From Fimbriimonadaceae bacterium (lineage in GTDB: Bacteria; Armatimonadota; Fimbriimonadia; Fimbriimonadales; Fimbriimonadaceae): 35,785 bases of DNA. Made by a program: the position numbers and the translations under genes. Below are positions 2,120 to 15,951 of this stretch, piece after piece; the stretch's first letter is position 1; each line of letters opens with the position of its first letter. Location: the NCBI GenBank assembly GCA_019638835.1, contig JAHBTC010000017.1, positions 1 through 35,785 of the forward strand, read 5' to 3'. The notes under the pieces were generated by a model that was not told where the DNA came from, searched no databases, and worked only from the letters and a program-made list of their open reading frames with translations.

Positions 2120-3229
2120 GTGAGAGTGCGTAGCCGTAAACAGAAAGGTATCTCGCTCGTCGAGGTCGTATCGGCAACCGTCTGCGTCGGAGTCTTGGGC
2201 ACCGCTACCGTTGCGGGCACCACGGCGGCGCGGGCGCGACTCGGAGAATCCGTCCTGACACGCCAGGCCGTGTCGGCCGCGCAGAACAAGATTGAAACCT
2301 TGCGCATGATGGGCCGCCAGGCAACCTTGGCTCCCGGGACAATGACGGAGTCCGTGCTCCTGAACGACACCGTCCAGGCCACCGTCGAAACCGTGGTGCA
2401 GGGCAAGGCCCTTCCCGACGGAGAACTTTTCTCTTTGGAAGGGCTTGACGGCGACCCGGCGTCCATCTCGACCCGGGATCGGGAACTGGGCGAACTGATG
2501 GCCCTCCGTGTTCTCGGCAACAACGACCTCTCGCAGTTTGTGTCCATGGAAGGTGCTCCCAACTTCTGGACAATGGAGATAGAGTTTGGTAGCACCCTCA
2601 AGGACAACTCGAATGGCGCGGACACCGCCCCTGAGTTGATTCTCCTGGAGCGCGGTGGTAATGGTGGTCTCCAGATTGAACCGATTGATCAGGACGGAAA
2701 CTCCCTCGCCAAGGCATACGTGGTTTCACCCACTCAGGTCACGTTTTCGACCACGACGCCATCCTCCGGATTACCCAACAACCGCTCACGAGAAGAAGCA
2801 CGAGTTGTTGGTCTTGATCTGTCGGCCATCTTTGGCCTGACGGAGTGCAAGCGATTCCGGATCTCGCATGCGTCGGGGCCGCAACCGAATTTCAAGTTCA
2901 TTGGATTTGACACCACCGGTTGGCCGACCAACTCGCTTTCGCCGCAGTTCCGCGTCTCCGGCCCCGGAACCAACTCCTCCTACATCGGCCCGGTCATGCT
3001 GAACGGCATCGAGTCCGGCTCGTTCCAAAGTTCACGAATCGAAGTCGTCACCGGCGTGAAGAACTTCAGTTTCTCCGGAAATCTGAACCAATGCAAGTTC
3101 TACTCCCGCCCCTCAACCATTTGGGATGTGCAAGTGCGCGTCCTTTACCAAGCCACGTCTATGGTCGGCAAGCGTGACCGCGAGGTCACCGTCGACAGCG
3201 CTGTTTCCATCGGGACCCTTTACAACTAA
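2120..3229 (+). CDS. Minor pseudopilin, GspI/PilV-like
   Basis: The 369-aa protein has a type III prepilin leader: a short basic N-terminus (MRVRSRKQKG), cleavage expected after Gly, then ISLVEVV with the conserved Glu at mature position 5 and a hydrophobic helix to about residue 35. The long C-terminal globular part is not recognised. It is the first gene of a three-gene minor-pilin set and its TAA overlaps the next ATG (TAATG). The start is uncertain: GTG at 2120, or GTG at 2126; an in-frame TAG at 2099 excludes anything longer, and no good ribosome binding site is seen. Minor pilins of this type prime assembly and form the filament tip. Confidence 0.82.
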   Translation: MRVRSRKQKGISLVEVVSATVCVGVLGTATVAGTTAARARLGESVLTRQAVSAAQNKIETLRMMGRQATLAPGTMTESVLLNDTVQATVETVVQGKALPDGELFSLEGLDGDPASISTRDRELGELMALRVLGNNDLSQFVSMEGAPNFWTMEIEFGSTLKDNSNGADTAPELILLERGGNGGLQIEPIDQDGNSLAKAYVVSPTQVTFSTTTPSSGLPNNRSREEARVVGLDLSAIFGLTECKRFRISHASGPQPNFKFIGFDTTGWPTNSLSPQFRVSGPGTNSSYIGPVMLNGIESGSFQSSRIEVVTGVKNFSFSGNLNQCKFYSRPSTIWDVQVRVLYQATSMVGKRDREVTVDSAVSIGTLYN

Positions 3230-3900
3230 TGAAACATCTGCGACGCACCAAGCGAGGGTTCACCCTCCCCGAAACCGTTATCACCGCGAGCCTCTCGGCG
3301 GTGGTTGTCGGTGCATCCGCAACTCTCTTCGCGTTTAGCGTTCGAAGAGTGCAAAGCGAAACCGTTGAACTCAACGTCGTCAGCCAGGCCCACGCTCTTG
3401 CGGACGACATCGGCGAGACGATGAGCAACGCAATTTACGTCACGACCGATAACTCCAACGAAGCCCAAAAGGTTCTGATCATCAACGTGCCTTCGGAATC
3501 GATGGACTCGGATTTTGACGGCAGCGGCGACGTTCAGTCGCCCTCCATGATCGGCAATTCCGGTCGCGAAGTCTACGGATCAGATCGCATGTCCGGTTAC
3601 GTTTGGGGTCCGTCCGCCGATGGAACCTACCAAACCGTGATGAAGCTTGACCGTCCGAACGGGTCTTCGCAGCCTTGGCTCATGACCGTAGACGAAGAGT
3701 GGAGCAAACAAGACGGCCAACCGCGCTGGAAGATGATCCGCTCGGTGGACTTCGTGAACGACCCGATTGCGCGCACCACCAAGGTGACGATCATTGCGGG
3801 GGCAAACCTGAGCACCGGAGACGCGCCGGATGCCGCGAATGACGGACGCTCAACCACTTACCGATTGGAACGCACCTACTGCTGGGGGACTTCGCTTTGA
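3229..3900 (+). CDS. Minor pseudopilin, GspJ/PilW-like
   Basis: The 223-aa protein carries a canonical prepilin N-terminus: a basic leader (MKHLRRTKRG), cleavage after Gly, then FTLPETV with Glu5 in place and a hydrophobic helix to about residue 33. The globular part has no further motif that I recognise. The ATG overlaps the previous stop by 1 nt. Its own TGA overlaps the TTG start of the next gene (3897-3900), so the three pseudopilins are translationally linked. Position and order (I-, J-, K-like) match the tip complex of type II secretion and type IV pili; the specific GspJ assignment is inferred from order. Confidence 0.82.
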   Translation: MKHLRRTKRGFTLPETVITASLSAVVVGASATLFAFSVRRVQSETVELNVVSQAHALADDIGETMSNAIYVTTDNSNEAQKVLIINVPSESMDSDFDGSGDVQSPSMIGNSGREVYGSDRMSGYVWGPSADGTYQTVMKLDRPNGSSQPWLMTVDEEWSKQDGQPRWKMIRSVDFVNDPIARTTKVTIIAGANLSTGDAPDAANDGRSTTYRLERTYCWGTSL

Positions 3901-6305
3901 GAATCTCCCGTAAACGCCGCGGCGCAACCCTTCTTTACGTTGTGGTCACTGGTGCCGGCGTCGCGACCGTTCTTAGCGGTTTGACAGGATTTACCGCCGA
4001 GGTCTCCCGACGCGAAGGATTGAACGAGGAGAAAGCGACGGCGGTTGCCGCACTGGACGGCGTTCAGGAACTCATGCGATGGGAGATTCGCTCCATGGTC
4101 TACGGTGGCGTCGAGGTCAACGGCTATGACGAAGCCGTGGACACCAACACCGCAGCCGACACCGCCACATCTCTCCCCGCTGCAACGGCGGCAATCCGCG
4201 GGATGGCCGGATTCACGGGTTCGGTTTCCGAGAAGATTCCGACGAATATGGTCGTCCCCGCCGGGATGACGTATGCGGAAAGCACCGAGAACGTCAATGC
4301 CTTTGTTGAAGGATCGGGCGATCAAAGCAAACGATCCGAACGTAAGACGATGACGCTCGACACCCTCTATGGTGTGTTGTCTGGCGCAACCGTCGCCGAA
4401 ATCGGTTCGGATGGACTTTCCTACAATTACAAGCGAAAGACCGTTATCGGTGTGCCGTGGACGAATACAACCAACGTGCCCCGGCTGAAGGCAACGTACT
4501 ACTACATGAAGGGCGGACTCACCCCGCACCTTGATAGTGCGATCGGACTCAACGGGCCTGCTCTCGCCAGCAGCGGAATGGTGGAACTCGAATTGGGCGC
4601 GCATGGCTTCCCCGTCGCGACCGATTACGCGATCCAAAGTTCGCTCGCCCATATCAAACTGAACGGCACCGACCCGCAGTCCCGCGAAATCCAATGGTGG
4701 AATCCGGGTTATGCCGGGGGACGCACGATTGTCAAGGAGTTCGAAAGAACGGATACATTCCCCGTCAACTGGGAAAACCAAAAGGTGGGGGGCGCGACGC
4801 CTGTCGAACCTCGACTTCGGCTGATCCATTGGACCGGATCGTTCAACTTGGCGAAAGCCACCGACATCCAAGGGGCATCCATGCTCCTTACCACCAACGG
4901 GGATACCTGGGTTTACATCAACGGCAAACTTGCGATGGACCTCGGCGGCCTCAAAGGGTTAGTCACGTCGAACAGCATTGACCGACGGTGGATGCAAACC
5001 GGTGCCAACCGCATTGATATCTTCTATGCGAGCCGGCGCGGGGGCTACTACTTCGGGCTCAAGACGAACCTGATGTTCTCGCCAAACGAACCCGTGAAGA
5101 TCTTGCGGGATTCCAAGTTCGACCAGGGATGGGCAACGCTCACCCCGAAACTCTCACCGATGTCGGGCGTGCAAATGCTCGATAGCAAAGGCACCACCGA
5201 CCCGGACGACGTGGACCTCGGTATCGAGTCAAACCTTGTTGCCACCACACGCGGAGTGGCCTACAACGCTCCAACCGTGTCCGGTGATGTGGGTGCTCGG
5301 TTCACGCAAGCCACGGCGACCCTCCTGCTGTTCAACACCGCATGGGGACTCGATCTAAAGAATACGCTCAAGGTCTACCAGCGTGAGACGGCCACGGATT
5401 CCTGGCGATCGGTCAACTGGTTCGCCACGAACTCACTGGAAACCGGTTCTTACCGGCGAATCACAATTTCCACCGCGAAGGGTGAACTCAAAGAGAAGAA
5501 CTTCTTGATCGCGTTTGACGGTGCGAAACTGCTCGGATTGGCAAGCGGTTCCGTACGAATTGCCGACGTTGCGATGGTGACAACGACATTGACGTCTTCG
5601 CCCACGCTCTTCCTTCCTCCGTACGAAGAAAAGGCTGATTCCTATGCGCTAGTCGCTGGATCAAAAATTGAAGTCGAACGCCAAACTGACGTAGATGGCT
5701 CCGTATGGGGAGGCGACGATCTCAAACTGTACAGTGCGCCAATGTCGATCTCGAAGGACTTGTTCCTTGTCGGCGAAGTCCGCAAGCAAGGATCACTACT
5801 CCTAACGGTGTTGAACATTCTGGGAATTTCTACAACTTCGAGCAGGCCTCCGGGATTTGTCCTTGATGCCGGGGCCTACGATAGTCGTGCCAATCTGCGT
5901 TGTTCCGGCGGCACCGTGAGTGCGCTCGCCGTACCTTCTGGTCACTCAGCCGTAAACCTGTATTCTGACAACAGCCTGACCCTATCTAACCTGTCGATCC
6001 CTAGTGGCGGAACTATCTACGCAAAAGGGAGCTTGACAATCTATGGTGGGATCACAATGGATGCAGGGAAGGAACTCTATCTGATCGCTGACGGTGGAGT
6101 CATCATTGATGCACCAGTCGCCACTTCAACGGCAGCAGACTATTCTCGCATCCATATCATTGCGTCGCAAGATGTCCAGTTCAAGCGACCGGTGAACTGG
6201 AACGGCACGGTCAGAACCAATGGCAAAATGCAGTTCAAGGCCAAAAGTACGATGCGATACGTCGCACCTTCCATGTCTCCGCCTGGGGTTGCAACTACCG
6301 GGTAG
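3897..6305 (+). CDS. Very large GspK/PilX-like tip pseudopilin with fibro-slime/PA14-like domain
   Basis: The 802-aa product starts MRISRKRRGATLLYVVV: a basic leader, Gly cleavage site, hydrophobic helix, and no Glu at mature position 5, as in GspK, the pseudopilin that caps the tip. Around residues 195-380 is a fibro-slime/PA14-like module, with the signature DTWVYINGKLAMDLGG near residue 340. The C-terminal part (about 600-790) is rich in short Ser/Thr/Gly β repeats (SGGTIYAKGSLTIYGG), suggesting a β-helix or polymer-forming fold. GspK and PilX proteins are usually far shorter. The likely role is a tip adhesin or carbohydrate-binding cap. It starts at TTG inside the previous stop, and ends in TAG. 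Confidence 0.78.
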   Translation: MRISRKRRGATLLYVVVTGAGVATVLSGLTGFTAEVSRREGLNEEKATAVAALDGVQELMRWEIRSMVYGGVEVNGYDEAVDTNTAADTATSLPAATAAIRGMAGFTGSVSEKIPTNMVVPAGMTYAESTENVNAFVEGSGDQSKRSERKTMTLDTLYGVLSGATVAEIGSDGLSYNYKRKTVIGVPWTNTTNVPRLKATYYYMKGGLTPHLDSAIGLNGPALASSGMVELELGAHGFPVATDYAIQSSLAHIKLNGTDPQSREIQWWNPGYAGGRTIVKEFERTDTFPVNWENQKVGGATPVEPRLRLIHWTGSFNLAKATDIQGASMLLTTNGDTWVYINGKLAMDLGGLKGLVTSNSIDRRWMQTGANRIDIFYASRRGGYYFGLKTNLMFSPNEPVKILRDSKFDQGWATLTPKLSPMSGVQMLDSKGTTDPDDVDLGIESNLVATTRGVAYNAPTVSGDVGARFTQATATLLLFNTAWGLDLKNTLKVYQRETATDSWRSVNWFATNSLETGSYRRITISTAKGELKEKNFLIAFDGAKLLGLASGSVRIADVAMVTTTLTSSPTLFLPPYEEKADSYALVAGSKIEVERQTDVDGSVWGGDDLKLYSAPMSISKDLFLVGEVRKQGSLLLTVLNILGISTTSSRPPGFVLDAGAYDSRANLRCSGGTVSALAVPSGHSAVNLYSDNSLTLSNLSIPSGGTIYAKGSLTIYGGITMDAGKELYLIADGGVIIDAPVATSTAADYSRIHIIASQDVQFKRPVNWNGTVRTNGKMQFKAKSTMRYVAPSMSPPGVATTG

Positions 6306-7695: not shown

Positions 7696-8817
7696 TTGGT
7701 TGGCCTTGACTTGGGTTCTCACGGGCTCAAGGCAATCGTCATTCGGCAAGAGGGTCGCGCCAACATCCTAAGCCACGCTATTCAATTGAGCGTGGATTGC
7801 GGAGTGGATTGGGACACCGCGACACCACATGATCCCGCCGTTCGGGAACTCCGGGGCCAACTTGCGGCCGCCGGACTCAAAGGATTCGCTACGGCGTTTT
7901 CCATCCCCACGCAAGGCGTTGTCCAACGTTGGTTGGACTTCGAAGATCTCCCGGAAGAAGAGATCCCCGCCGCCGCCCGCCACCGTCTCCGCAAGTTCAT
8001 TGCCGACAATAACAAGGTTTACGTCACGATCAGCGAGGACACGGACCCGTTTTCGAATGAACGACTGGTGACGATCGCGCCGAAGGTGACCGTGGATCGG
8101 TACGCCGAGATGGTGCTTGCTCTGGGATTACGCCCCGTGACGGCCGAACCCGAATCGAACTCTCTTCTTCGTGTGGCAGGCAGCGTTCTTCGTCGCCGGA
8201 GTCCACTTTTGCGGGATGGCTCAGCGATTCTGATTGACATCGGTCTCCACCGAACCCGCGTGGATATCATCCGCGACGAACGTGTCGAATTCACCCGCGA
8301 GTTTCACTTTGGATCACACGGCTTTGTGGCCCGGATTGAGAAAGAACTAGTCCTTACCCAAGCCGAGGCGGAAGCCGCACTCGAACAGCCGACGACGAGG
8401 CTAAGCCCGCGAGGATGGCTCCAAGTTGCGACTCCCGGCGGTATCGCGCAAGTGGACGTCAACGAGCCCCTTGGTGTTTTGCTCCACGAAAGCAACCGCC
8501 TCATCCGCTACTTCCGTTCCATCTATCCCGAGCGCAGTTATTCGGGCACCGTCTGTTCGGCCTTGCTGACCGGTGGTCTCGCCGATCTGACCGGGTTGGT
8601 GGATTTCGTCGAACGATCTCTGGTGATGGAGACCGGAACCATTGATCCGCTATCGGTCGTGCGTGTGGACTTGCCCGAGGAGCAGTTCGTCACTCTCGCC
8701 CGCAGCCCCTACGTCTTCACCACGGCTACGGGCCTCGCCCTAGCCATACGCAACTTGAATCGACACGAAAAGGAGGAGCCCCATGATCGCACCCGCAACC
8801 GGCCGATCGCCGCGTAA
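7696..8817 (+). CDS. pilM: PilM, actin-like pilus assembly protein
   Basis: The 373-aa protein has the PilM/FtsA-like ATPase fold. The N-terminal phosphate-1 motif GLDLGSHGLKAIV is clear, and a second actin-like motif (ILIDIGLHRTRVDII) sits near residue 175. PilM is cytoplasmic and binds the N-terminal tail of PilN to join the inner-membrane platform. It is the first gene of pilM-N-O-P-Q in the canonical order, and its 3' end overlaps pilN by 35 nt. The start is uncertain: TTG at 7696 places the motif right at the N-terminus; a CTG at 7672 in the same frame would overlap the HD-GYP stop. No clear ribosome binding site is present for either. Confidence 0.88.
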   Translation: MVGLDLGSHGLKAIVIRQEGRANILSHAIQLSVDCGVDWDTATPHDPAVRELRGQLAAAGLKGFATAFSIPTQGVVQRWLDFEDLPEEEIPAAARHRLRKFIADNNKVYVTISEDTDPFSNERLVTIAPKVTVDRYAEMVLALGLRPVTAEPESNSLLRVAGSVLRRRSPLLRDGSAILIDIGLHRTRVDIIRDERVEFTREFHFGSHGFVARIEKELVLTQAEAEAALEQPTTRLSPRGWLQVATPGGIAQVDVNEPLGVLLHESNRLIRYFRSIYPERSYSGTVCSALLTGGLADLTGLVDFVERSLVMETGTIDPLSVVRVDLPEEQFVTLARSPYVFTTATGLALAIRNLNRHEKEEPHDRTRNRPIAA

Positions 8818-9394
8818 ACCTGCCCGCTATCTCGCCCACTGTAATGGCTTGCAGGAGTGGCATCTCTTGCAGTCCAAGCGCGCGGCAAGTCGAAAGGGCG
8901 CAAGTGGCAAACTTGTCCTTGCATCTGTTTTCATGTCTCTATCCTTCTTGGGGTCGGGACTAGCTGTCGTCATGAGCACGGCAAAGTCTTCGGTGGCGTC
9001 ACAGCAACTCTCCAAAGTGGAGTCGCAGATGCAGGCGCTTGGCGCCGGTGCGGCCGAAGCCGGCGTTCAACGCGAATACCGCGAGATCGTGGAAGGGAGC
9101 CTGAAGCACAATGCCGGCACCCTGAATCCGATCAGCATCGTGTTGAACGAGATGCCCCTCAACTGCTGGCCGGAAACAATTTCGGCGGCATACGAGCAGA
9201 AAGATTTCCAGGTGACAGGGCGGGCGTCTGCACTGACGACCGAAGTGAAGTACGAACTCGTCCGCAACATCGAGGATCAGGAGTCCACGCTCGAAGCGAA
9301 GATTGACTCTTTTGGACTGGAAATGCGCGAGGGACGTCAGTTGGAGCGATTCAACTTTGTCGCTCGCTATAAGGAGGGCGCGAAGAGTGAGTGA
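8783..9394 (+). CDS. pilN: PilN, inner-membrane alignment protein
   Basis: The 203-aa bitopic membrane protein has a roughly 42-residue basic cytoplasmic tail, one membrane helix (about 43-65) and a periplasmic part beginning with a short coiled coil. This is the PilN layout; the identification rests on position between pilM and pilO plus topology, since PilN sequences diverge widely. The start is well supported: AGGAGGAG at 8771-8778 lies just before ATG 8783, inside the end of pilM. PilN pairs with PilO in the periplasm and docks PilM in the cytoplasm. Confidence 0.82.
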   Translation: MIAPATGRSPRKPARYLAHCNGLQEWHLLQSKRAASRKGASGKLVLASVFMSLSFLGSGLAVVMSTAKSSVASQQLSKVESQMQALGAGAAEAGVQREYREIVEGSLKHNAGTLNPISIVLNEMPLNCWPETISAAYEQKDFQVTGRASALTTEVKYELVRNIEDQESTLEAKIDSFGLEMREGRQLERFNFVARYKEGAKSE

Positions 9395-9974
9395 CGCGAT
9401 TCATGAATCCGTACCCAAGATGGAACGACTCACCAAGATGATGGTGGCGTTCGGTGTTCTGGCAGTTCTGTTCGGTGGTTACACCTTCATGTCCGAATCG
9501 AAGCAGGCCGCCGACCTTCAGTCCAGGCTCACCGAAGAATCCAAGAAACTGGCTCAGGCCCAGCAGGACGCAGAGAACGTGGACCCCAACGGGAATTTCC
9601 ACCGGATCACGGGCGACCGAGTCGTACAAGTCTTTAGCCACCGCTTGCAGGAAGAGGCGCAAGCGGCGGGCATCCGGGTAGAGAAGGCGAGTCAAGACAA
9701 AAACATTGACCCACTTCTGCCGGCGGGTAACGCCCCGCAAGCCCCGTCCGGTTGGGGGATGGTGCAATACGAGTTTGAACTTAGCGGGCAAACGAGGTCG
9801 GTCCTCGGGGTAGTTCGCAAGATGGCTGAATCGGGCCTCGCATTCGAGATTGAGAGCCTCGGATTGATGCGGAAGCCCGGCACAACTGGCAACGGCGAAG
9901 TACTTGGGCGATTTACAGTCCGGCTCGTCACCCGAGGGGGAGCGGTGACTCCTCCAGGGGCGACCACATCATGA
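9387..9974 (+). CDS. pilO: PilO, inner-membrane alignment protein
   Basis: The 195-aa protein has a short N-terminal tail, a membrane helix at about 17-35, a coiled coil (about 40-60) and a ferredoxin-like periplasmic domain. That is the layout of PilO, the PilN partner. The start is GTG at 9387, with AAGGAGGG at 9371-9378 placed 8 nt upstream and an 8-nt overlap with the end of pilN. The same frame is open further upstream to 9303, but that extension runs inside pilN and has no ribosome binding site. Its stop overlaps pilP (ATGA at 9971). Confidence 0.82.
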   Translation: MSDAIHESVPKMERLTKMMVAFGVLAVLFGGYTFMSESKQAADLQSRLTEESKKLAQAQQDAENVDPNGNFHRITGDRVVQVFSHRLQEEAQAAGIRVEKASQDKNIDPLLPAGNAPQAPSGWGMVQYEFELSGQTRSVLGVVRKMAESGLAFEIESLGLMRKPGTTGNGEVLGRFTVRLVTRGGAVTPPGATTS

Positions 9975-10651
9975 AGTCCCTGCAAGGAAAGTCAGGTCTT
10001 CTCGTTATAGCGTGCCTCACGGTCCTCGTCATCGCGGGCAGCCTGATGCTGAAGAAAGCGGTGGTGACGCCCAAGCCGTCTGCCGCGAAGACAAACGCTC
10101 CGACCGCAAATGCCCCGGCCGCGACCGCGAACGCAACGGCGGCGAAGACCTCCTCGGGCGACGGACGACTTGCCGTCAAGTTTGTGCCCCTCGTGGTGGA
10201 TCCGTATTCGCGCCCCATGCCGGGCGACGAAGCGGTGCGAGAACAGATCCCGAACGGACTGTCCTTATCCGGGGTCAGTACGGGCCCTACCCGGACCGTA
10301 CCGACCGACTCTCCGCAGCGACTTGATCTTGGCCCGCTTCGGATTCAACCGCCGCCGCTCGAAGGCACGTTGCCCGACAGCGCGCCGACCAATCCGGGCG
10401 GAGGCAACGCGCTTCAAACCCCGGTGGATGAACCGATTGCGACTCCCGTTCGCATTGGCGTTCGAGGCGTAGTGGGGACGAATGCCGATCGCGCGTTCAT
10501 CGCGGTGGCCGGCGGTTCACCTCGCGCCGCCCGAGCCGGAACTGATTTAGGCGACGGCATCTCCGTTGTCCGTGTCTCTGAGCAAGGCGTCGTCGTACGC
10601 CGAGGCTCCCAAACCAAAACAATTCCTGTCGGAAAGGAAATCGAGTTATGA
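9971..10651 (+). CDS. pilP: PilP-like pilus assembly protein
   Basis: The 226-aa protein has an N-terminal membrane helix (about 8-27), an Ala/Thr/Pro-rich linker (about 30-60), a disordered Pro-rich middle and a C-terminal β domain of about 65 residues. The latter reads like the HR/PilP-GspC fold (VVGTNADRAFIAV, then GDGISVVRVSEQGVVV and KTIPVGKEIEL). In this family that domain links the PilNO complex to the secretin. Classical PilP is a lipoprotein; this one has no lipobox and appears anchored by a helix, as in GspC. ATGA overlaps link it to pilO and pilQ on both sides. Confidence 0.8.
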   Translation: MKSLQGKSGLLVIACLTVLVIAGSLMLKKAVVTPKPSAAKTNAPTANAPAATANATAAKTSSGDGRLAVKFVPLVVDPYSRPMPGDEAVREQIPNGLSLSGVSTGPTRTVPTDSPQRLDLGPLRIQPPPLEGTLPDSAPTNPGGGNALQTPVDEPIATPVRIGVRGVVGTNADRAFIAVAGGSPRAARAGTDLGDGISVVRVSEQGVVVRRGSQTKTIPVGKEIEL

Positions 10652-12540
10652 CATTCACATTGTTCGCCGCTCTTGCTTTGCAGCAAGTCCTCCCCGTCCT
10701 CGCGACGACTCCTGAGCCTACGGAGTTCGAACTCGTCGCCGTGCAGGATTCGGAACCGATGAGGGTTCCTGCTTGGTGGTTCAAGGTGAAGTCCGAGCCG
10801 GCAACGGTTCTCGATCGCCCCGCGTTCGGCAGAGCCCGACGTGCCACTTCCGCAACGGATGCTGAGTTGTTTACCGCTACCGTACGCTGGCTAAAGCCCG
10901 AAGAGCAGACGCGAGTTGCCGTGCAGATCACCGAGGCCGCCCGCGTAGAAGCCTTGGCTCAAGAGAAGCCGGTCACAAGCCAGAACGAGACGAACCCAAC
11001 CGTTTCTCGGTCTGCCGACCTGAAGCCGCGCGTAGAATCTCAGACCGAGCCGCCCGCCGTCCCGATCCCGCCAACTCCCCCGGTTGCACCCGTGCCGACT
11101 GTTCGGGAGGAACCAACTACCCCGGCAAGCGCGACCTCGCCGCTTCCCGCTGGTGCAGGACAGCGATCGCGACTTACACCCGCGCAACTGTTCCACCGCG
11201 ATCCTTCCTTCTCCGCTGATCCTTACGAAAAGAAAGTGACGGTGCAGGTGCAGGACATGGATATTGCGACCGTGCTCAGCACATTGAGTGAAGAGATTGA
11301 TCTAAACCTTGTTCTTCAATCCGCGTCGGACAAAACTCTCACTTTGAACCTGCGAGAAACTCCGTTCAATGAGGTGTTACGCACCATTTGTAATCTCACC
11401 GATCTCTATAGCGTGCGATTGCCGTACATGGTCGTGGTAGGCAGCAAAGAGGCTTTGTCCGCTCGCTACCCCACCGAGTTCGCCCTGGAATATCCGACGA
11501 CGCAAGCCGAAACTGCGGTCGTGATGAAGCGCGAAATCGTGCGCCTGAACTTCGTTGACTCAATCGAAGCCGCCAACGTTTTGCGTAGCCAATGGAAGGA
11601 AGAAGACTTGAAGATCGGCATTGGACCGATGCACTTCTCCCCCGGCGCTTCCGATGCGAATGTCATGGGCTCGGGCGGCATTTTGGATAGCCAGGGACAG
11701 CAGGGCGGAAGTGCCCCGCCGGCCAACGTCACGGATACCACGATTACCGGTAACCCGGCAAGCAAGACGCTGGTTCTTTATGGCGCGGATACCGTCATTC
11801 GGCAAGCGCTCGCCTTGCTTACCGACTTGGATAAGGCTCGTCCGCAAGTCAACGTCAGCGTTTCGATTTTGGACGTGCGGAACGACAAACTCGACGAACT
11901 CGGAATCAAGTGGGATTTCGGAAGCTTCTCTTTGACCGAGAACAGCCCGCCAGGGGTCGGTGTCATGCCGTTCCAGCGGTCGGGTTTCAATTTCCAGGCG
12001 ACAATCAGTGCGCTTGTCCGCGACGGAGCAGCCAAAGTTCTCGCCGAGCCGACGGTTGGAGTTATGGATGGACGGTCGGCCTATGTCCTCATCGGCGACA
12101 AACTCAAGTTCCCTGAACTCGTGGGCCGCGATTCCAACAATCAGCCAATCTTCAGCACCCGCGAAGAGCGCGTAGGTATCTATCTTCAGGTTGCCCCGAC
12201 GGTTTCGGCCGACGGTACGGTGACCATGTCCATCTTCCCGCAAGTCAGCACGGTGACGGGCTACACGGACTTCCAAGGAATCGGTCGCTACCCGATTATC
12301 TCGGCCCGCGAAAGCCGGTCTTCAGTTGCGGTCCAGAACGGAGATTCCATCGTCATTGGGGGCCTGATTCAAGAGCAGGACATCAAGACGTGGCAGGAAG
12401 TTCCGCTCCTCGGGCGTATCCCGTTCTTCGGCGAGTTGTTCCGATGGCGATCCAATAGCCGCGTTTCCTCGCAGGTGATCATTACCATCACGCCGCGCGT
12501 TGTTTGGCCGGAAAACCATGCATCTGGAACGATCGATTAA
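10648..12540 (+). CDS. pilQ: PilQ-like secretin, outer-membrane pore
   Basis: The 630-aa protein has a signal peptide (about 1-20), a Pro-rich linker (about 125-165), a secretin/TonB N-terminal domain (about 185-270), an N1-type domain, and a C-terminal secretin domain (about 400-625). The last is marked by VLAEPTVGVMDGRSAYVLIGD, the gate region, and QNGDSIVIGGLIQEQ with PLLGRIPFFGELF near the end. It forms the ring through which the pilus or substrate passes. ATGA overlap with pilP. No AMIN peptidoglycan-binding domain is visible, unlike PilQ of Proteobacteria. Confidence 0.93.
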   Translation: MTFTLFAALALQQVLPVLATTPEPTEFELVAVQDSEPMRVPAWWFKVKSEPATVLDRPAFGRARRATSATDAELFTATVRWLKPEEQTRVAVQITEAARVEALAQEKPVTSQNETNPTVSRSADLKPRVESQTEPPAVPIPPTPPVAPVPTVREEPTTPASATSPLPAGAGQRSRLTPAQLFHRDPSFSADPYEKKVTVQVQDMDIATVLSTLSEEIDLNLVLQSASDKTLTLNLRETPFNEVLRTICNLTDLYSVRLPYMVVVGSKEALSARYPTEFALEYPTTQAETAVVMKREIVRLNFVDSIEAANVLRSQWKEEDLKIGIGPMHFSPGASDANVMGSGGILDSQGQQGGSAPPANVTDTTITGNPASKTLVLYGADTVIRQALALLTDLDKARPQVNVSVSILDVRNDKLDELGIKWDFGSFSLTENSPPGVGVMPFQRSGFNFQATISALVRDGAAKVLAEPTVGVMDGRSAYVLIGDKLKFPELVGRDSNNQPIFSTREERVGIYLQVAPTVSADGTVTMSIFPQVSTVTGYTDFQGIGRYPIISARESRSSVAVQNGDSIVIGGLIQEQDIKTWQEVPLLGRIPFFGELFRWRSNSRVSSQVIITITPRVVWPENHASGTID

Positions 12541-14218
12541 GGATATTGTTGTCGAAGAGGGGTTCGTCTCCGGCGACCAACTCTCCGAGATCCTCGCGGG
12601 TCGAGCAGACGCAACGGAAAACGTTGGCGAAATGCTCGTTCGCCTCGGGTTAATCTCCGAGAAGCAACACCTTCAATGCCTCGGACTTCAAACGGGAATC
12701 CCGTTTGCAGACCTCGCGCGAACGCCTGTTGACTCCGAAGGGGCCAGACGCATCTCCCACCAGATCGCCATCCGTCACATGGCGATCCCGGTGGAGGTGA
12801 CGGAATACGCCGCTAGCGTGGCAATGGTCAACCCGCTCAACATTGCGGCCATTGATGAGATCCGAGAGCAACTTGGCGTAAACGTTGACCCAATGTGGGC
12901 CAGTGAGAGCGATGTTCGGGACGCTATCTTCAAGGTCTTCGGCAGCCTCGACAACTTGTCGGTTCTGGTGGGCGAATTCCACTCCGGTGATGTCGAGACG
13001 GTCGAGACAGGTTCAGACGAAAACGATCGCTCTTACGACATTGCCGAGAAACAGGATGGAGCCCCGGTCATTCGGTTGGCAAACGCCCTTCTCGCCAAGG
13101 CTATCCGCGCCAAAGCAAGTGACATCCACATTGAGCCCAGCGCCCGAGACACGAAAGTTCGCTTCCGTGTGGACGGCATTCTGCAAGAGGTCATGGTGAT
13201 TCCGAAAGCGGTTCAACGAACACTTGTGAGCCGCTACAAGGTCATCGCCGGACTTGATATTGGTGAACGCCGCATCCCTCAAGATGGCCGGTTTGCGGTC
13301 AATATCACCGAGGGCACTTACGACCTCCGTGTCAGCACCTATCCGACCGTCAACGGCGAGAAGATCGTCATGCGCGTCTTGGATAAGTCCAGCATCTCGA
13401 TTGACCTCCAAACTCTCGGTTTCAGCCCGTTTGCCCTTGAGCGAATCACGGCTCGAGCCGAAGAAAGCCAGGGTTTGATTCTTGTCACCGGACCAACGGG
13501 TTCGGGTAAGTCCACGACGCTCTACTCGATTCTCAACCATTTGAATGACAAGAGCCGGAACATCGTTACGATCGAGGACCCGGTCGAGTACCAACTGGAA
13601 GGCATCACGCAGGCGAACGTCAACAACGGCGCCGGGATGACCTTCGCGAACGGTCTGCGGGCGATTCTCCGGCAAGACCCTGACGTGGTTTTGGTCGGTG
13701 AATCTCGCGACCCAGAGACCGCCCAGACCTCGATCGAGGCTGCCTTGACCGGTCACCTAGTCTTAACATCGTTGCACGCAAACGATAGCGTTGCGGCCGT
13801 GGTACGCCTCCTCGAAATGGGCATTGAACCATTCTTGGTGAGTTCTTCGGTCACGCTCTCCATCGGCCAGAGACTCGTCCGTGTCATCTGTCCTCATTGT
13901 AAGGAGACGTATGTGCCGGACACGGCCCATGTGGAAGCCTTGGGGTTGCCGCACAATTTTGAGTACATCCACGGCGCAGGTTGCGAGAAATGCGGCGGCA
14001 CGGGATATCGGGGTCGTTGCGGAATCTACGAGGTTATGGACCTCACGTCGAAGATACGTTCAATGATCTTCGCGGGTGAATCCACGGACAGCATCCGCCG
14101 CGATGCAATCCGTCACGGCATGCGGTCCATGCGTCAAGACGCGATCTCGAAGGTCATGGATCACGTCACTACGGTAGAGGAAGTTCTTCGCGCTTCACCG
14201 GGAGAGGATGCAGCGTGA
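12518..14218 (+). CDS. pilB: PilB/GspE extension ATPase
   Basis: The 566-aa assembly ATPase has an N-terminal MshEN/GspE-N domain (about 1-140) and a core with Walker A GPTGSGKS (about 325-332), an Asp box in IEDPVEYQLEG, Walker B ending DVVLVGE (Glu about 395) and a His box in TSLHAND. A tetracysteine zinc site (CPHC at 458-461, CEKC at 489-492) is typical of PilB/GspE and absent from PilT, so this is the extension motor. The ATG at 12518 overlaps the end of pilQ by 23 nt; a TTG at 12500 would add only six residues. Its stop overlaps pilC (GTGA). Confidence 0.95.
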   Translation: MHLERSIKDIVVEEGFVSGDQLSEILAGRADATENVGEMLVRLGLISEKQHLQCLGLQTGIPFADLARTPVDSEGARRISHQIAIRHMAIPVEVTEYAASVAMVNPLNIAAIDEIREQLGVNVDPMWASESDVRDAIFKVFGSLDNLSVLVGEFHSGDVETVETGSDENDRSYDIAEKQDGAPVIRLANALLAKAIRAKASDIHIEPSARDTKVRFRVDGILQEVMVIPKAVQRTLVSRYKVIAGLDIGERRIPQDGRFAVNITEGTYDLRVSTYPTVNGEKIVMRVLDKSSISIDLQTLGFSPFALERITARAEESQGLILVTGPTGSGKSTTLYSILNHLNDKSRNIVTIEDPVEYQLEGITQANVNNGAGMTFANGLRAILRQDPDVVLVGESRDPETAQTSIEAALTGHLVLTSLHANDSVAAVVRLLEMGIEPFLVSSSVTLSIGQRLVRVICPHCKETYVPDTAHVEALGLPHNFEYIHGAGCEKCGGTGYRGRCGIYEVMDLTSKIRSMIFAGESTDSIRRDAIRHGMRSMRQDAISKVMDHVTTVEEVLRASPGEDAA

Positions 14219-15450
14219 CGGCATATCGGTTTCGCGTTCTGAACGCTGACGGCACGACCGAGAATGGTCGGATCGAAGCGGAATCCCTTGACCAAGCGGA
14301 AGAGGCGGCCTCCCGAAAAGGCAAGGTTATCTCCATTGTTCCGCTGCTGGAAGCTCGCGCGAACTCCGAGTCCCCGAAAGCAAAAGCGATTTCAAAGATC
14401 AGCGTCGGGAAAAAGAAAACGAAGACCGATGAAGTCATCACGGTCATCCGCAACATGGCCGTCATGGCTGAGTCCGGGGTACCCCTCAAGGAGGCTCTCG
14501 ACACCGTATCAGCAGAAGCCGGCACTCCTGACCTCACGAATGCGCTCCGCAAACTGCGCGATGAGGTTGTAGCAGGTCACGCCCTCGCAGACGCGATGCG
14601 TACTTTGCCAAAGTTCTTCCCCGAGATTGTATGCGACATGGTGTCTGTCGGAGAGGATGGCGGAAAGATGGACGCGGCCCTTTCCAGTGCTGCCGACCAT
14701 ATGGAGCGATCGGCGGCAATGAAGGCCAAAATAGTGAACGCTCTAATTTATCCCTGCATCCTTCTCGGCGTATCGCTCCTCTCGGTTGCTTCGCTCGTCG
14801 TGTTTGTGCTACCGCAGTTCATGGAGACGTTCAAGCAGATGGGCATTGAGCCTCCGATGCTCACGAAAATGCTCATGTTCGCGGGAGACTCACTTCGCAA
14901 GTGGCCGCACATCACTTTCGCGGTCATGGTTGGCCTTCACTTCGGGGGCAAGTACGCCCTCAAACAGCCGATCGTCGCCTCCAAGGTGCAGGCGATTATT
15001 CTGCGGCTTCCCGTTGTCGGCGACCTCATGACCAAGATCGCTATCTCTCGGTGTATACACACTTTGGCCTCCCTCACGGGCGCAAACATTCGTCTCGTAG
15101 AGGCGCTGCATCATACGGCAAAGGTTGCGGGCGTACCCGCGATCACGGCCGCGTTCGAGCAAGCGAAAACTGACCTTGAGCAGGGCGACACTTTAGGCGA
15201 ATCGCTCACGCGCACGAAGACGCTTCCCAGCACTCTTGTGCAACTCATTTCCATTGGCGAACGAACATCGCGTCTTCCACAACTTTTGAAGCGGGCCGCC
15301 GTTCAGATGGAGTCCGAAGCCGATGCGCGATTGAAAGCCGTCGTTTCACTCTTCGAACCGATGCTAATCGTTGTGATGGGCGGCATCATCGGCATGATCA
15401 CACTCTCCATTATCACACCGCTATTCACCGTGATCCAGAAGATCAACTAA
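14215..15450 (+). CDS. pilC: PilC/GspF inner-membrane platform protein
   Basis: The 411-aa polytopic platform protein has two tandem GspF domains. The first contains VIRNMAVMAESGVPLKEALD; the second contains HTLASLTGANIRLVEAL and ends with a membrane helix rich in Gly/Ile just before the C-terminus. PilC couples rotation of the PilB motor to pilin insertion. It starts at GTG overlapping the pilB stop. No terminator follows, and the pilin gene begins 60 nt downstream. Confidence 0.95.
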   Translation: MTAYRFRVLNADGTTENGRIEAESLDQAEEAASRKGKVISIVPLLEARANSESPKAKAISKISVGKKKTKTDEVITVIRNMAVMAESGVPLKEALDTVSAEAGTPDLTNALRKLRDEVVAGHALADAMRTLPKFFPEIVCDMVSVGEDGGKMDAALSSAADHMERSAAMKAKIVNALIYPCILLGVSLLSVASLVVFVLPQFMETFKQMGIEPPMLTKMLMFAGDSLRKWPHITFAVMVGLHFGGKYALKQPIVASKVQAIILRLPVVGDLMTKIAISRCIHTLASLTGANIRLVEALHHTAKVAGVPAITAAFEQAKTDLEQGDTLGESLTRTKTLPSTLVQLISIGERTSRLPQLLKRAAVQMESEADARLKAVVSLFEPMLIVVMGGIIGMITLSIITPLFTVIQKIN

Positions 15451-15510: not shown

Positions 15511-15951
15511 ATGATGCGAACGAATCAGAAGCGTAAATTGGGGTTCTCCTTGGTGTAGATGATGGTGGTCGCCTCCATTATCGGAATTCTCACGGCCATA
15601 GCTGTGCCGAAGTTCACCGAAGTGCAACGCAAGAGCAAAGAGTCGGCCCTAAAAACCAACCTTCAGGTTTATCGTTCTGCAGTCTATGTATTCTTTAGTG
15701 ATACGGGGCTCTATCCGCAGTCACTCAATGACTTAGCCGCTACCACTCAACCGGCCAATGGTTTGACACCGACCGCCGCCGTCCGATCCATTTCACCAGG
15801 CACTTGGCGTGGACCGTATGTCCAGCAGATTCAGTTTGACACCGTATCTGGCAAACCGCTAACCTATTCGGTGGCCAACGGAAGCGTCGGAACGATCAAG
15901 AGTTCAGCAACCGGAAACGATTCAAACGGCGTCGCGTTCTCGACTTACTGA
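15511..15951 (+). pseudogene. Type IV pilin/GspG-like pilin gene interrupted by TAG at the Glu5 codon
   Basis: From ATG 15511 the translation reads MMRTNQKRKLGFSLV, then TAG (15556-15558), then MMVVASIIGILTAIAVPKF. This is a textbook prepilin leader and helix in which the codon of the invariant Glu5 is TAG rather than GAG (one G-to-T change). The rest of the frame (15559-15951) is intact and pilin-like, with a YPQSLNDL motif and a C-terminal domain resembling GspG-type pilins. Translation from ATG 15559 would lack the leader and part of the helix and should not be exported. It could be a recent nonsense mutation, a sequencing or assembly error, or amber readthrough. It is the last gene of the pilus operon and overlaps the convergent S41B gene by 7 nt. 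Confidence 0.85.

Follow-up and report, generated by a model that had tools for sequence, protein, structure and literature searches.

An in-frame amber codon at the Glu5 position of a GspG-like pseudopilin gene in a Fimbriimonadaceae bacterium: a probable recent nonsense mutation

In the genome of an uncultured Fimbriimonadaceae bacterium (Armatimonadota), the GspG-like major pseudopilin gene of a type II secretion (T2SS)-like operon carries a single in-frame TAG at the codon for Glu5, while the remainder of the gene and the operon is intact and UAG functions as an ordinary stop codon. We consider it probable that the operon's sole close gspG homologue recently acquired a nonsense mutation in its Glu5 codon, and that this mutation has reached fixation or a high frequency in the population sampled. 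The base, read in one assembly, would then be real. The window analysed here, i.e., the whole stretch of 35,785 nucleotides, belongs to a 2.74-Mb assembly (207 contigs, 97.8% complete, 3.54% contamination).

Results

The frame at 15511-15951 (+ strand) translates as MMRTNQKRKLGFSLV, the amber stop and then MMVVASIIGILTAIAVPKF, continuing to AFSTY and the terminal stop. The TAG (15556-15558, +) is codon 16 of a 147-codon frame and falls on residue 5 after the Gly/Phe prepilin cleavage site. No second internal stop was found among these 147 codons, all remaining ones being sense, and Glu is encoded in every aligned relative, in agreement with the earlier note, which had described an amber stop at the invariant Glu5 codon of an otherwise undamaged gene. 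The read-through product shows 64-65% identity to its same-genus relatives (E about 1e-58), and the frame is therefore a genuine coding frame beyond chance. Note that the landing of the stop on Glu5 is not itself significant, since 44 codons of the gene lie one base change from any stop and 25 from TAG, giving a chance of about 1 in 25-44 for a position that was noticed precisely because the stop fell there. The open frame after the stop (15559-15951, +) starts with ATG ATG, lacks the leader, the cleavage site and residues 1-5, and as a stand-alone protein had no Pfam match at E<=0.001. The viral contigs searched with the site gave no match.

With the TAG read as Glu, the frame exceeds the cut-offs of the prepilin profiles TIGR02532 (26.9 bits vs 16.3) and PF07963 (30.6 bits vs 21.2), and it displays a class III (prepilin) signal peptide with the G/F site followed by a hydrophobic helix. 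GspG was the top-scoring type II secretion profile, but TIGR01710 (52.9 bits, E 3.8e-14, cut-off 88.85) and PF08334 (17.5 bits, cut-off 21) both remained under their curated cut-offs, so that the gene is named only GspG-like. It shares with the GspG family (TIGR01710; PF08334 plus the PF07963 N-methylation motif) the prepilin N-terminus, the hydrophobic helix, the C-terminal pattern W[KR]GPY...DPVSG...Y and the proximity of GspD, GspE and GspF, and differs from it by these scores and by the stop that stands in place of an encoded Glu5. Profiles and neighbours identify what had been called a pilin gene as GspG-like, hence related to type II secretion, and do not clearly make it a type IV pilus pilin; judged from its sequence and context, it would belong to a T2SS-like system and is not evidently a pilus gene.

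The pseudopilin gene is the last of an operon (all + strand) in which the PilM-, secretin-, ATPase- and GspF-like genes are all open. Immediately upstream lie an intact GspF/PilC-like inner-membrane protein (14215-15450; PF00482, E 5e-56; TIGR02120, 1.1e-96), an intact GspE/PilB-like assembly ATPase with an MshEN domain (12500-14218; PF00437, E 2e-131; TIGR02533, 4.7e-172) and an intact GspD/PilQ-like secretin (10648-12540; PF00263, E 4.6e-39; TIGR02517 best), preceded by very weak candidates for a GspC-like protein (9971-10651; NF041515, E 0.013, far under cut-off) and a GspM-like protein (9303-9974; PF04612, E 0.022, under cut-off), and by a PilM/GspL-like actin-fold protein (7696-8817; PF11104, E 6e-15). 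Two probable minor pseudopilins of 369 aa (2120-3229; weak PF07963 match, under cut-off; 40% identity to its orthologue in the same-genus genome G001) and 223 aa (3229-3900; weak PF07963/TIGR02532 matches, under cut-off; 44% to the G001 orthologue) are also present. The former displays a sub-threshold match to XDP2, an exosortase-dependent surface protein family (E 7e-12). An 802-aa operon protein (3897-6305), without Pfam family and with a sub-threshold fibro-slime match, is only 27% identical to its syntenic G001 counterpart and is fast-evolving.

The window is syntenic with the same-genus relatives G001 and G002, whose Glu5 codons are GAG and GAA, respectively; Glu is invariant at this position in the other 11 alignment rows. 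By parsimony on the aligned sequences, Glu5 is the ancestral state. The comparison with close relatives proposed in the earlier note thus returned a sense codon in both of them and a single lesion in the window. The nearest named relatives, Armatimonadetes bacterium Uphvl-Ar2, assigned to Fimbriimonadaceae by its authors (PMC5629041), and 'Chthonomonas sp.' UBA2785, both have a syntenic gene with the Glu5 codon; they apparently correspond to G001 and G002.

Relative-rate counts with nine outgroups gave 7-14 window-specific against 10-17 G001-specific changes. The window branch thus shows no consistent acceleration, which speaks against a long-standing pseudogene. Identity to G001 is similar for the pseudopilin (63%) and GspF (61%). 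The second-to-third codon position ratio of the pseudopilin (0.50) lies at the high end of that of its neighbours (0.25-0.52), a difference too weak to call. The lack of visible decay implies that the stop is young, that the base is wrong or that the protein is still made.

Global reassignment of UAG in the source genome is ruled out by four lines of evidence. The prfA gene (RF1) scores above its cut-off and is uninterrupted, and the best match to PylS (TIGR02367) reached 20.6 bits against a cut-off of 178.15. Of 295 genes sampled from about 524 kb, each 250 aa or longer, 74 (25%) terminate in TAG, and where a TAG-ended gene could be compared with an orthologue, the two ends lay within 10 aa of each other in 10 of 11 cases. 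UAG is therefore not globally reassigned, as the earlier note had held. The search for an amber-suppressor tRNA that it had suggested returned no CUA anticodon among 43 tRNA matches (ARAGORN; one uncalled match, read by eye, is Arg UCG), a set that is slightly incomplete since Tyr and Asn tRNAs are missing from it. Pattern matching aimed at CUA-type anticodon arms recovered only a tRNA-Glu already known (anticodon CTC) and sites that are not tRNAs, and no CUA tRNA was found by pattern search in G001, G002 and a further genome of the family (G007). The case shares with pyrrolysine amber recoding (PylS/pylT) a UAG within an open frame; unlike in that system, PylS is not above cut-off, a CUA tRNA was not found, RF1 is intact and UAG is a common terminator.

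Among about 55 genes of the source genome compared with syntenic G001 and G002 genes, the pseudopilin gene is the sole one with a clear internal stop. An ab initio scan of about 524 kb, at thresholds that would miss stops this early in a gene, revealed no other convincing interrupted gene, most candidates being adjacent genes that share a frame; nonsense lesions, real or artefactual, are therefore rare in this genome. Across the order, 2 of the 75 GspG-like matches listed contain an in-frame TAG (the source genome and G007) and none of the 75 a TAA or TGA, while in-frame stops were absent from about 150 listed GspF-type control matches. A TAA suspected in a paralogue of another genome (G056) was not reproduced in the profile search. 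The orthologue in G007 (G007:C1:246775-247188, minus strand; L015:1498-1914) has an otherwise open frame, and its TAG replaces the conserved K/R residue within W[KR]GPY, unlike the Glu5 stop of the source genome. Since the window gene was chosen for its stop, a second stop among some 70 genes is only mildly surprising. An apparent gspE frameshift in G007, suggestive of operon decay, proved to be a run of 26 N (L118:11318-11343). An in-frame TGA in G007:C2 (L254:5552) separates the sulfate-permease part of a SulP-like transporter gene from its STAS part, so that this genome carries further lesions, real or not.

The earlier note had also proposed that the strain might be pilus-negative, which overreaches, since the interrupted gene is a GspG-like pseudopilin of a T2SS-like operon and the genome encodes more than 20 further pilin-like genes (those examined have GAA or GAG at the Glu5 position), with another PilC/GspF locus on contig C68. 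None of these genes is a close gspG paralogue, the next match having an E-value of 9e-9. Two prepilin peptidase matches were identified, and processing capacity therefore remains. In-frame stops in the pilin matches of contigs C132 and C135 are located upstream of the prepilin start, outside the gene. On the 4-kb contig C49, three type IV pilin-like genes of very similar sequence stand in tandem; they may encode the actual pilus subunits or reflect a repeat at which the assembly broke.

Discussion

Under a recent nonsense mutation, the ribosome would halt after codon 15. Since translation would end before the hydrophobic helix, no pseudopilin would be made and the secretion pseudopilus would fail to assemble, so that loss of function is predicted from the sequence. 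The change would be young, as neither accelerated decay of the pseudopilin gene nor an interruption elsewhere in the operon is seen. Glu5 itself is dispensable for processing, and Glu5 mutants form no homopolymeric type IV pili but can join mixed filaments (PMC4471445). This reading, which is the one we retain among the three hypotheses of the earlier note, nevertheless relies on a base supported by one assembly only (207 contigs, 3.54% contamination), proposes a lesion of a kind rare in this genome, where no other clearly interrupted gene was seen in about 524 kb, and, as a unique random event, leaves the in-frame TAG of the same-family G007 orthologue unexplained.

The draft state and contamination of the same assembly, the otherwise undamaged gene and operon, and the fact that one base change suffices would also fit a consensus or sequencing error, or a minority allele picked by the assembler, with Glu retained in the living population. 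We regard such an error as less likely than the nonsense mutation, although it is an alternative to be taken seriously, because the assembly looks clean, with no other clear internal stop in the syntenic genes compared or in the scanned 524 kb. Translation through the UAG, by a suppressor tRNA, programmed readthrough or leaky termination, might instead yield enough pseudopilin and perhaps keep its level low. The frame downstream of the stop looks constrained, G007 offers another gspG interrupted by UAG, and Belinky et al. (PMC7918605) argued that such readthrough occurs frequently. In our study, programmed readthrough nonetheless received no positive support, and readthrough of any kind seems improbable: a CUA tRNA was not found, PylS stayed under its cut-off, RF1 is intact, and the RNA fold 3' of the TAG is unremarkable (z -0.62). 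The stop site is not conserved either, since the two TAGs occupy unrelated codons (Glu5 vs K/R in W[KR]GPY) and there is no third among the listed GspG-like matches. Near-cognate tRNAs at UAG are those for Gln, Lys, Tyr and others, and mostly not Glu. The stop position thus argues against useful readthrough, since such tRNAs usually insert another residue than Glu.

It appears still slightly less credible that some Fimbriimonadaceae tolerate or exploit UAG in this pseudopilin gene, with low-level readthrough setting its dose and independent UAGs having arisen in the functional gspG of two genera. Finally, ribosomes that terminate at the TAG could reinitiate at the ATG of 15559 and make a 130-aa membrane protein without leader and residues 1-5. 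The two ATG codons directly 3' of the TAG and the open 130-aa frame would allow it, but this product would lack the Gly-Phe cleavage site and Glu5 and would not be processable as a pseudopilin. In addition, the intact G001 and G002 genes share Met-Met after Glu5, which therefore did not arise as a start, and we consider this the most improbable of the explanations.

Single in-frame stop codons are common in bacterial genes whose sequence is otherwise conserved, and many of them persist only briefly (Belinky et al. 2021, PMC7918605). Our case shares with those a single nonsense codon, a frame conserved on both sides and apparent youth; unlike them, it concerns a single genome and an assembly-critical residue, and the stop position is not conserved across species. 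Readthrough of this codon, if it occurs, would make the gene a rare example of a stop placed at such a residue. If instead, as the nonsense mutation implies, the base is real, one of the secretion machines of this population has probably been lost through its main subunit, with the other genes still open, and the window would capture decay at its earliest stage.
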